From Aspergillus flavus (Eukaryota; Ascomycota; Eurotiomycetes; Eurotiales; Aspergillaceae): a stretch of DNA of 64,000 nucleotides. Position numbers and translations under genes: made by a program. The number at the start of each line of letters is the position of its first letter. Position 1 is the first letter of the stretch. Below, piece by piece: positions 24,629 to 63,996 of the stretch. Below the pieces are notes generated by a model that had not been told where the DNA came from, did no database searches, and was given only the letters and a program-made list of their open reading frames with translations. The stretch is from NCBI RefSeq assembly GCF_009017415.1, contig NC_092407.1:868001-932000 (forward strand), given 5' to 3'.

Positions 24629-24636
24629 GAAAAAAA
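24629..24636 (-). terminator. RNA polymerase III terminator of tRNA-Pro
   Basis: A run of eight T on the minus strand, six bases after the discriminator base of the tRNA gene. It supports transcription of the tRNA gene as an intact pol III unit. Confidence 0.9.
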
Positions 24637-24642
24637 AGAATG

Positions 24643-24788
24643 GGCCCGAACCGCGGTTCGAACGCGGGGCCTCTCGCAGATTGGTACTATTGTAGCCCAC
24701 TGGAAGAATTATTAGTATTTAAGATGTTGATGGCACGGTCGATGAGGGTAGCTTACAAGCGAGAATCATACCACTAGACCATCCGGGC
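24643..24788 (-). tRNA. tRNA-Pro(UGG) with a canonical intron and an extra GT-AG insert
   Basis: Minus-strand tRNA gene. The acceptor stem GCCCGGA/TTCGGGC pairs fully (one G-T). The D arm carries the A box TGGTCTAGTGG. The anticodon stem is CTCGC/GCGAG, the T arm CCGCG-TTCGAAC-CGCGG (B box), and the discriminator is C, as in yeast tRNA-Pro. The anticodon loop is split: T32 T33, then 57 nt (24756-24700), then TGG G37, then 17 nt (24695-24679), then T38. The 17-nt piece sits at the universal tRNA-intron site and contains CCA, able to pair with the UGG anticodon as eukaryotic pre-tRNA introns do. Reading all the extra bases as one intron would give a Tyr GTA anticodon on a Pro body with C73, which is much less likely. 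Confidence 0.88.
24700..24756 (-). other. spliceosomal-type intron candidate inside the tRNA anticodon loop
   Basis: 57-nt insert between U33 and U34. It starts GTAAGC, has TACTAAT (24717-24711) with the presumed branch A about 12 nt from the end, and ends TTCCAG. Length, ends and branch spacing equal those of protein-gene introns in this window (mostly 43-71 nt). Its exact removal restores a seven-base Pro anticodon loop. Confidence 0.75.
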
Positions 24789-61417: not shown

Positions 61418-63996
61418 TCAACCGATAAATATCCTCTTTGAAAGCTTATCTAGCGAGTGTAAGGTAAAACTTTCGATACAGGTCCAGCATACCTGCTTGG
61501 GCAAAACAAAAGTCAAGTGACCTTTCTGGACCGAGATTGCAGTGGCAGCAAGCCTTCCCACGAAATTGTCGTGAGCTCGAATGACCCTTGCAGTGCTCGG
61601 GGCGTCGATTAGCTCATCCCAGTTGTCAATGGAGACGGCCGGGAATCTAGGTTTGGGGCGTGAGGGATGGCTCTGGCAGGGATGCGGCAGGGAGATCCGC
61701 TCAATGAAGTTGCTCGACAAAGCACCCAGGATATCAATATCACCTACCCACTTTGAGCCATCATAGACTTGGGCCAGCGTCTCGACGTAGTTCGCCTCGA
61801 CGTCCTGAACTCCGTGAAACACCGCACCGGGGACAGGGCTCTCGTATCTTGTAAACGAGAGCTGAATAGATGAGTTGTCGAAGTGATCTTCGACTGACCC
61901 GTTGAAGGCAATATGGTCGATCAGTTGCCATGTGTCGAACTCGGCCTTCCTCAGCTTGGGGTTCATGGGCGGAATCAGCAGCGAAACGCCGGATTTCCCA
62001 ATATTGGCCACCAGTCTCTGGATCTCATGAGGCTTAGCGTCCTCCCAGGGATCGCAGAGGATGGAACTTGATGCGAATATAAAGTTTCCAGATGAAATGG
62101 CCATGACATTGGTGAAGCAATCTGGTGATAGATCCATCGTGCCGGTCTCGAACAAAGCCACACAAGAGAAACTCTCAGATCGGGCCACATCGAACACTTC
62201 AAATCCACTTCGGTTTCTTTTCACAATAACGAATTCGTCGTCCTTGTCGTCTTCGTATGGGTGTTCTGCGTCGTCTTCGCAGGGGACCCACTTTTGCTGG
62301 CCCAGCTCCTTGCGTAGTACACTGAGAGATACGGACGCGTTGGGCATAAGTTTGTAAATCTGGTCTGCTGTCGCGAGCGCTCTCATGGACCGGACGTACT
62401 CAGGAGATGCCTTCGCGAACCAGACATGGGTCAGGTGAACCTCGAGCTTCTCTACGTCAAAATATCGATTATCAAAGAAGCGTGTGAGATTCTCTGGGAA
62501 CACTTCGAAATCTGACATGCAGATACCGGTGGCATATACAGCAATGGTTGGGTTGTCGTTTATCTTGGGGTATCGAAACCGTTTTAAAGGTTGCTCGGGG
62601 TCAGGCTCTCGCCGATCATGGCCACGCACTGCAATTGATATTGGAATCTTCGCAGTGCCAACTGAGCGGGAGAGGTTCAGGGGAAGGTAGTATGTAAGAT
62701 AATGCTGAGAAATTTCCAGACTATCTGGGTAGTAAAGCTCACAAACCTCCCCTATAGAAATAACCTCATCGAATCGCGTTGTGTTGTAATCTTCCCCAAG
62801 TCTCAACCATGCATTGTGCTTCACCTTTGCGACATCCGCGGGGACCAAACCCACATGTTTCTTCTTCCCTTCTTTGGTCGCAATTGGTACGACGGTAGTA
62901 AATTCCTGCCATTTCCCGAGTCGCTGGCACTCGTGAGTATATCCAATAAACATTGTGCTATCCCCGACGTCAGGGGAGCTGCGTACGATTGCTCTCATGG
63001 CGTCGATATGGCACTCTGCATCATCCCGTAGTAGGTTTAGGACCACTTGTGGCGATGAGAGACCGAAGAGCCGCGGCGGATGTTCATCCAGCGGACCAAG
63101 GAAGGTCGCACCCCGGCGCGTCCCCATCTTAACTAGATTCCAGAAATTTCGCTGGTCTCGTTCCTCTGCATCCTCGAGCATCTGACAAGCTTTGACTATA
63201 ACGCCCACCCACCCAGAGGAAAGACGGGCAAGGGTGTGTGCAGCTCGCCACACTGCGGTGGGCATGTCCATGTTGGTGGAAAACGTACTAGAAACCTCTC
63301 CAACAAAGTCACCCAAGGAAATGATCATTTCAACGACCGAGTTGATCGCTAGTCCGTCTTGAGTCCATGTGCACCATCGTTGCAAAAAGCAGCCCAGAGC
63401 GACCAGGGTGAACTCGTTGAATGACACCCGCGACGCGTCCTCAGCTACCGAACGTCGACAGAGCACGGGGTCACCGTAGTAGCGGAGATGTGAGAGTGAA
63501 AGCGACCAGAATATCCCCGTGCTGTGGGACGGATCCGCATCCTCAAGGCCGACTATCAGGCGACCTGCGCCCGACATGAGGGGTCTTTTTGTTCAACCGT
63601 CTTGTTGCTAACGCAGAAGACGTCCATATCTGGGTAGAGATGCCAAGCCGAGAGGGCAAGCAAAACAGCGCCGCTGTTCACTCTTTGAGATATCCCCATT
63701 AAAAGATTCTGCACCATTTCCATGGCAGACTGCCAAGCCTTGATAACACTGGAAAAGACCACAGAGTTATTATTCACCGAGATTGAGAGATTTTCAATGA
63801 TCAATCGGAGTTGAGAATGCTGACGCTGGTTTGCCTTGTCGGCGATCGCTAGCCACGCTCGAACACCAGCATCCCAGTTCGCAAGTTCAGCTCTCGTAAC
63901 CTCGAGGTGTGAAGCCCGAATTAGTGCGTAGTGAGAGGGTTCATTTGGGTCGCACTCCGCCGAGATCTGGGCTTTTCGCTCCTCAACAATTTCCAC
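61418..63996 (-). CDS. large protein of unknown function, 5' end outside window, with frameshift
   Basis: At least 865 codons, running off the window's right edge, so N-terminus and true size are unknown. I do not recognise a named domain. Two open stretches overlap: 63996-63556 (helical; EIVEERKAQISAE, LAIADKANQRQHSQLRLIIENLS, ending SNKTVEQKDP) and 63577-61418 (SGAGRLIVGLEDADPS to the stop). Meaning continues across the overlap only if one base is missing or extra near 63577-63590, where AAAAA and CCCC runs sit. The second part is globular with features such as FLQRWCTWTQDGLAINS, WLRLGEDYNTTRFDEVISIGE and HLTYYLPLNLSRSVG. No transmembrane helix or signal is evident. The shift may be a real mutation or a homopolymer sequencing error. 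Confidence 0.65.

Follow-up and report, generated by a model that had tools for sequence, protein, structure and literature searches.

The minus strand of the window (the whole 64,000-nt stretch of DNA analysed) carries a tRNA-Pro(UGG) gene whose anticodon loop is interrupted twice, by 57 nt that resemble a spliceosomal intron and then by a short intron at the canonical tRNA position. Its parts are as follows:

24643..24788 (−): tRNA-Pro(UGG) gene, 146 nt with both introns and 72 nt without both
24757..24788 (−): exon 1, tRNA positions 1-33; the identical 32 nt occur in both Pro(CGG) genes
24771..24781 (−): A-box region, TGGTCTAGTGG
24700..24756 (−): spliceosomal-type intron, 57 nt, between positions 33 and 34
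24751..24756 (−): 5′ splice site, GTAAGC
24711..24717 (−): branch-site motif, TACTAAT, with the branch A 12 nt before the intron end
24700..24702 (−): 3′ splice site, CAG (the intron ends TTCCAG)
24696..24699 (−): exon 2, anticodon TGG plus G37
24679..24695 (−): canonical 17-nt tRNA intron after position 37, containing a CCA that can pair with the anticodon
24643..24678 (−): exon 3, from position 38 to the discriminator
24655..24663 (−): B-box region, GTTCGAACC
24630..24637 (−): T8, the expected pol III terminator, five bases past exon 3

The A-box and B-box regions listed are assigned by their consensus. Re-reading the sequence agrees with the first-pass annotation, which had described a proline-type body, a 57-nt insert running GTAAGC…TACTAAT…TTCCAG, the TGG anticodon with G37, and a 17-nt intron. 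The insert, bounded by GT…AG, has a single possible placement, and no alternative cut yields the same product. The same annotation held that removing the insert and the 17-nt intron leaves a perfect proline loop, and ARAGORN agrees: it calls the native 146 nt a tRNA-Tyr(gta) with a 74-nt intron, and once the 57-nt insert is out it names tRNA-Pro(tgg) with a 17-nt intron. We rejected the tyrosine call, which makes the insert part of one long canonical intron: the body is proline-type, TGGG or CGGG precedes the second intron, and the boundary is evident from siblings that have no insert. The insert lies at 33/34 and not at 37/38, where the separate 17-nt intron does sit; that intron forms 4 of 4 core pairs in its best register, a score that 820 of 2000 shuffles equal. 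ARAGORN in bacterial mode listed no tRNA in the window, and Rfam at its gathering score listed nothing there.

Proline tRNA genes in the same genome

The genome searched comprises 8 contigs (37.7 Mb) and is probably that of a member of the A. flavus/oryzae group: a protein mannosyltransferase ORF in the window has an Aspergillus protein as its best match, and another window protein is 100% identical to one database protein, 89% to an A. flavus protein and 81-83% to A. oryzae proteins. Allowing up to 2 mismatches, the proline 5′ half occurs at 16 places: 11 AGG genes, two UGG genes with the canonical intron only, the window gene and two CGG genes. The two insert-free UGG genes supply the count of other Pro(UGG) genes that had been proposed as a check. 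All 11 Pro(AGG) genes are without an insert, and three of them (L014, L015 and L016, at C4:1645169, C4:3694223 and C6:3302655) are decayed, their T arms lost or broken. Seven tRNA-Pro(AGG) genes lie within ~18 kb at C2:1133996-1152124.

Each of the two Pro(CGG) genes, which are 673 nt apart, carries an insert at 33/34 followed by a canonical intron. The inserts, of 63 and 60 nt, read GTGAGT…TACTAAT…TAG, and the canonical introns are 21 and 19 nt long. Within this pair the exons are identical (72/72) and the introns alike in 53/63 columns; between the window gene and the CGG genes the exons agree at 69/72 positions and the introns at 35/63 and 33/63. In these diverged proline introns GT, AG and the block around TACTAAT are all retained. 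In both CGG introns (L002 and L003) a small hairpin can be folded around the branch site (AATACT…AGTATT), and another just upstream (TTACGAAAGTAA).

A looser proline search returned 53 places, of which the 16 exact ones are the 16 known genes. Among the 37 inexact places, the 11 that were read include no proline tRNA, 13 share a string with two tRNA-Gly among those 11, and the remaining 13 proline-like places lay outside the reading. A whole-genome DNA search with 231 nt of the window locus, in which very common words were skipped, gave 7 matches at 5 tRNA-Pro genes and nothing else, so the 57-nt insert is no recognisable repeat; introns of different tRNA families gave no match to one another. 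The suggestion made earlier that the insert might have introner-like copies thus falls away: copies are few genome-wide, the search finds only tRNA-Pro loci, and there is no cross-family intron similarity.

Interrupted genes in other tRNA families and their splice signals

Comparable inserts were found in further tRNA families (Figures below are insert length and tRNA position, the position numbers being assigned by hand). An Arg(UCU) gene at C1:2665613 has a 59-nt insert (GTAAGT…TACTAAT…CACAG) at 33/34 and no canonical intron; in its two siblings the insert is absent and a short canonical intron is present. A Trp(CCA) gene at C1:5760591 has 55 nt at 28/29, with four siblings that do not; a Thr(UGU) gene (L096, C4:4171800-4172250) has 55 nt at 32/33 plus a 10-nt canonical intron, and the one sibling seen (L095) has the canonical intron only. 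The Leu(AAG) gene L104 (C1:2524475) has a 56-nt insert (GTTAGT…CTAAT…CTCTCAG) at 26/27. Leu(UAG) (L097), whose 63-nt candidate insert at 32/33 begins with the weaker GTTCGT and has no counterpart in a sibling to be set against, is a tentative member of the series. The full reading covered eight genes, the three proline genes among them; for a further eight Leu(AAG) copies it covered only the part from the branch site on.

The inserts therefore span five tRNA families (six with the tentative Leu(UAG)) and four positions (26/27, 28/29, 32/33 and 33/34), all in the anticodon arm and between the A and B boxes, with boundaries set by insert-free siblings in Pro(UGG), Arg, Trp and Thr. This breadth lends support to the proposal of the first-pass annotation that a pol II-style intron has landed in a pol III gene.

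All eight fully read genes have GT…AG, G at +5 and CTAAY; their inserts are 55-63 nt long, and the distance from the branch A to the end of the intron is always 11-12 nt. GT…AG falls at the exact exon junction in 8/8, and the placement is unique in 7/8. When the window insert was shuffled (mononucleotide shuffles, with the boundaries fixed by the tRNA), even the looser set GT, G at +5, CTRAY and AG arose in 0 of 40,000 trials, and the same test applied to each of the 8 genes gave 0 or 1 of 40,000. With the insert removed, ARAGORN names the cognate tRNA in seven of the eight genes, one Pro(CGG) being called Arg until its canonical intron is removed as well. On the native genes it misnames seven (Tyr, His, His, Val, Ser, Pro agg and Glu) and has Arg right; annotated tRNA sets of fungi like this one may accordingly contain errors or gaps. 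A candidate-intron scan over 111 overlapping records (355,612 nt) took 1101 candidates to 14 junction-spanning tRNA calls, all at the 8 loci and including some alternative cuts at the same locus and one Pro(CGG) named Arg, versus 0 of 1207 candidates in reversed DNA; it gives no genome-wide rate, because the DNA scanned was chosen around tRNA genes.

For comparison with introns of the host, the window holds a PMT (protein mannosyltransferase) gene, its ORF 93% identical to its best match, an Aspergillus protein. Its two aligned mRNA introns are 60 nt each, against 55-63 nt for the inserts, and have signals of a similar kind, GTAAGT/GTAGGT and CTGAC/CTAAC. By eye, the branch A lies 15 and 18 nt from the intron end in the PMT introns, versus 11-12 nt in the 8 tRNA genes, and AG|G is missing from the exon junctions of the latter. 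One gap in SLA1, the gene beside the tRNA gene, appears by eye to hold two introns, one with TACTAAT shortly before AG; an automatic cut was not clean.

Integrity of the interrupted genes and the case of Leu(AAG)

An alternative is that the interrupted genes are dead copies and the cell is supplied by insert-free genes. A and B boxes are present in all eight, and the first run of four or more T lies 3-16 nt past the gene and comprises 5-9 T at all eight loci; judged on sequence, these loci have the hallmarks of pol III genes, namely internal boxes and a T-run terminator. Neither broken stems nor broken boxes were found in them, in contrast to L014-L016, whose T arms are lost or broken. Compensatory changes appear where siblings were compared: the Trp gene shows 4 differences from its sibling, all in 2 compensatory acceptor pairs, and of the 8 differences between the Arg gene and one sibling, 6 form three compensatory pairs, one yields G-U and one lies in a loop. 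Even before the insert is removed, Rfam scores Arg (56.8 bits), Thr (50.6) and Leu(AAG) (39.9) above its cut-off. The other five interrupted genes are unlisted by Rfam, as is the insert-free Pro(UGG) locus L004, and since that locus is missed while three interrupted genes are listed, a miss says little. Predicted folds of the unspliced RNAs retain the acceptor stem in 7/8 (mean pairing 0.67-0.98; Trp 0.08) and have the 5′ splice site largely paired (mean 0.47-0.98), figures that carry no weight given that the same folding yields no cloverleaf even for spliced Pro and Trp.

Two insert-free copies exist for Pro(UGG), two for Arg(UCU), four for Trp and, as far as seen, one for Thr(UGU), so the interrupted members of these four families could be silent harmlessly. 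The same cannot be said so readily of Pro(CGG) and Leu(AAG): both Pro(CGG) genes found carry the insert, and so, as far as their 3′ parts tell, do all copies of Leu(AAG) with an exact 3′ half. There are 9 such 3′ halves in the genome and all 9 are directly preceded by CTAAT…CAG, the 5′ splice site having been read in one of the nine. A tenth match to the 3′ half, with 3 mismatches, lies at C4:995810. A pattern for an uninterrupted Leu(AAG), which fits the joined exons, has one match (C8:1043724; the reversed control has 2), 43 nt long versus the 47 nt counted for the family. Among the 9 exact 3′ halves, then, no insert-free Leu(AAG) copy was recognised, C4:995810 and C8:1043724 lying outside that reading.

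Leu(AAG), with inosine at position 34, reads CTT and CTC, which together make up 116 of the 296 leucine codons in the window genes (3355 codons). Because no insert-free copy was recognised, splicing at Leu(AAG) should be needed for translation; the need is strong rather than absolute, as Leu(UAG) tRNA might partly substitute. The intact stems, the compensatory changes and the Leu(AAG) family together contradict the first-pass suggestion of a tRNA pseudogene, and we regard dead copies as the least likely of the explanations weighed here.

Routes of intron removal, precedents and further screens

We consider it very probable that the tRNA gene works and that the 57-nt insert in it is a spliceosomal intron; its pol III pre-tRNA would be spliced by the spliceosome and then by the tRNA endonuclease. 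As far as sequence can indicate, transcription by RNA polymerase III would be directed by the internal A and B boxes and end at the T8 run. The nuclear spliceosome would recognise GTAAGC, TACTAAT and CAG, take out the 57 nt and join U33 to U34. That would leave a pre-tRNA of the usual kind, whose one intron, the 17 nt after G37, the tRNA splicing endonuclease and a ligase would remove. In budding yeast the tRNA endonuclease works outside the nucleus; such a location would fix the order, spliceosome first. Geometry points the same way: the endonuclease finds its cut sites by their distance from the folded body of the tRNA (PMC4090602, in excerpt) and the insert displaces the 5′ site, so the spliceosome would presumably act first.

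Three fates had been offered for the insert at the outset: splicing from the pre-tRNA, acceptance by the endonuclease, or residence in a pseudogene. Splicing from the pre-tRNA appears the best supported, with splice signals in 8/8. On the second, the inserts would be non-canonical tRNA introns cut by the tRNA splicing endonuclease in the style of archaea and red algae, their GT-AG ends being incidental. Eukaryotic endonuclease can cut archaeal-type substrates and in general relies mainly on a ruler, and in some algae non-canonical introns are spliced (PMC4090602, in excerpt); ARAGORN's correct call on native Arg(UCU) puts a 59-nt intron at its position 34, which allows an unusual cut; and the Arg(UCU) insert reaches 4/4 core pairs in its best register, as do 23% of its shuffles. 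Across the eight inserts the best bulge-helix-bulge core pairing is 2, 2, 2, 4, 2, 3, 2 and 3 of 4, not above shuffles, so five of the eight, the window insert among them, reach at most 2/4 in any register. This is a weak test: five canonical introns score 4, 3, 3, 4 and 4 of 4, and 13-80% of their shuffles do as well. As canonical introns fail to beat their own shuffles, the pairing test has little power, and the case against the endonuclease must be made by the splice signals: cutting by this enzyme leaves GT, G at +5, CTAAY and AG in 8/8, and their retention in diverged introns, unexplained. The weakness of the pairing test moves the odds slightly towards the endonuclease option, which we still judge unlikely.

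A further explanation is that the inserts are spliced from pol II read-through transcripts and the tRNA is then excised from the mRNA. The window gene is indeed on the same strand as SLA1, 569 nt downstream of its stop codon. The A and B boxes and T5-T9 runs at 8/8 loci argue against this route, as does fission yeast U6, a pol III RNA with an mRNA-type intron that is spliced (PMC10484740, in excerpt), and we find it very unlikely.

The mRNA-type intron in the U6 snRNA of fission yeast was reportedly described by Tani and Ohshima in 1989 and 1991. It is the nearest precedent, since the host of the spliceosomal intron is a non-coding RNA made by pol III, and its origin is attributed to reverse splicing near the catalytic nucleotides of U6 (PMC10484740, in excerpt), a route with no obvious tRNA counterpart. 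Unlike U6, the host here is a tRNA with an internal promoter, and several families are hit. Canonical Sen-endonuclease introns resemble the second intron of the window gene, which also follows position 37, and differ from the inserts, which lie at 33/34 (others at 26/27, 28/29 and 32/33), measure 55-63 nt and have GT-branch-AG signals. Archaea, red algae and nucleomorphs likewise have extra, non-canonical tRNA introns away from the usual site, and one gene may contain two or more of them; in the first two groups a bulge-helix-bulge marks the splice sites (PMC4090602, in excerpt), whereas here 5/8 inserts are without such core pairing and 8/8 have spliceosomal signals.

Searches of open papers brought up no account of tRNA genes that contain spliceosomal introns. 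The excerpts of a 2014 tRNA intron review (PMC4090602) and of the tRNAscan-SE 2.0 paper (PMC8450103) describe only endonuclease-type or unexplained non-canonical introns, and do not mention the spliceosome. We think it likely that spliceosomal introns in essential nuclear tRNA genes form a further tRNA intron class, in which two splicing machines would act in series and Leu(AAG) supply, and with it CTT and CTC decoding, would depend on the spliceosome. The textbook division assigns nuclear tRNA introns to the endonuclease and GT-AG introns to the spliceosome acting on pol II RNA. If our reading is right, that division breaks down, the spliceosome acts on pol III transcripts more widely than U6 suggested, and translation capacity is tied to splicing; the interrupted tRNA genes would also offer a clean way to test how genes are invaded by introns.

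All the interrupted genes come from one genome, and the genome and viral contig collections scanned, mainly of prokaryotes and viruses, yielded no relatives of them. A tRNA covariance search scored 63 of 1246 candidates, so that the gene counts given here are no full tRNA census. All genome screens placed the branch site 20-55 nt upstream of the T loop and would miss introns in other parts of tRNA genes; the window gene itself escaped two of them, which further required CC to follow the T loop. The first of these two returned 2 places (control 1), Arg and one non-tRNA. The second, which found the 9 Leu(AAG) places, returned 72, a count that alone shows nothing because the reversed control gave 66; 14 were read with flanks and the rest as the match only. 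A screen with CTGAY gave 59 places (control 66), and of the four examined (L098-L101) one is by eye an ordinary tRNA-Cys and three are not recognisable tRNAs. Another gave 21 places (control 20), including the window gene, one Pro(CGG) and Arg. When a T run was required, there were at least 155 matches, a figure much inflated by repeated counting of single genes, versus 37 in the control. Among the matches listed, CTAAY, a T-loop box and a T run come together at C1:2736438, C1:3617307, C1:4685301, C1:6074962, C2:715433, C2:4904366-4906322, C2:5496279, C3:2015702, C3:3508602 and C3:4152557; these ten places are possibly more interrupted tRNA genes, or else chance.

Elsewhere in the window, the ORF at 61418-63577 has a patchy spread of relatives: close ones in the A. 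flavus group, and then, at 51-59% identity, others in Thozetella and Colletotrichum.
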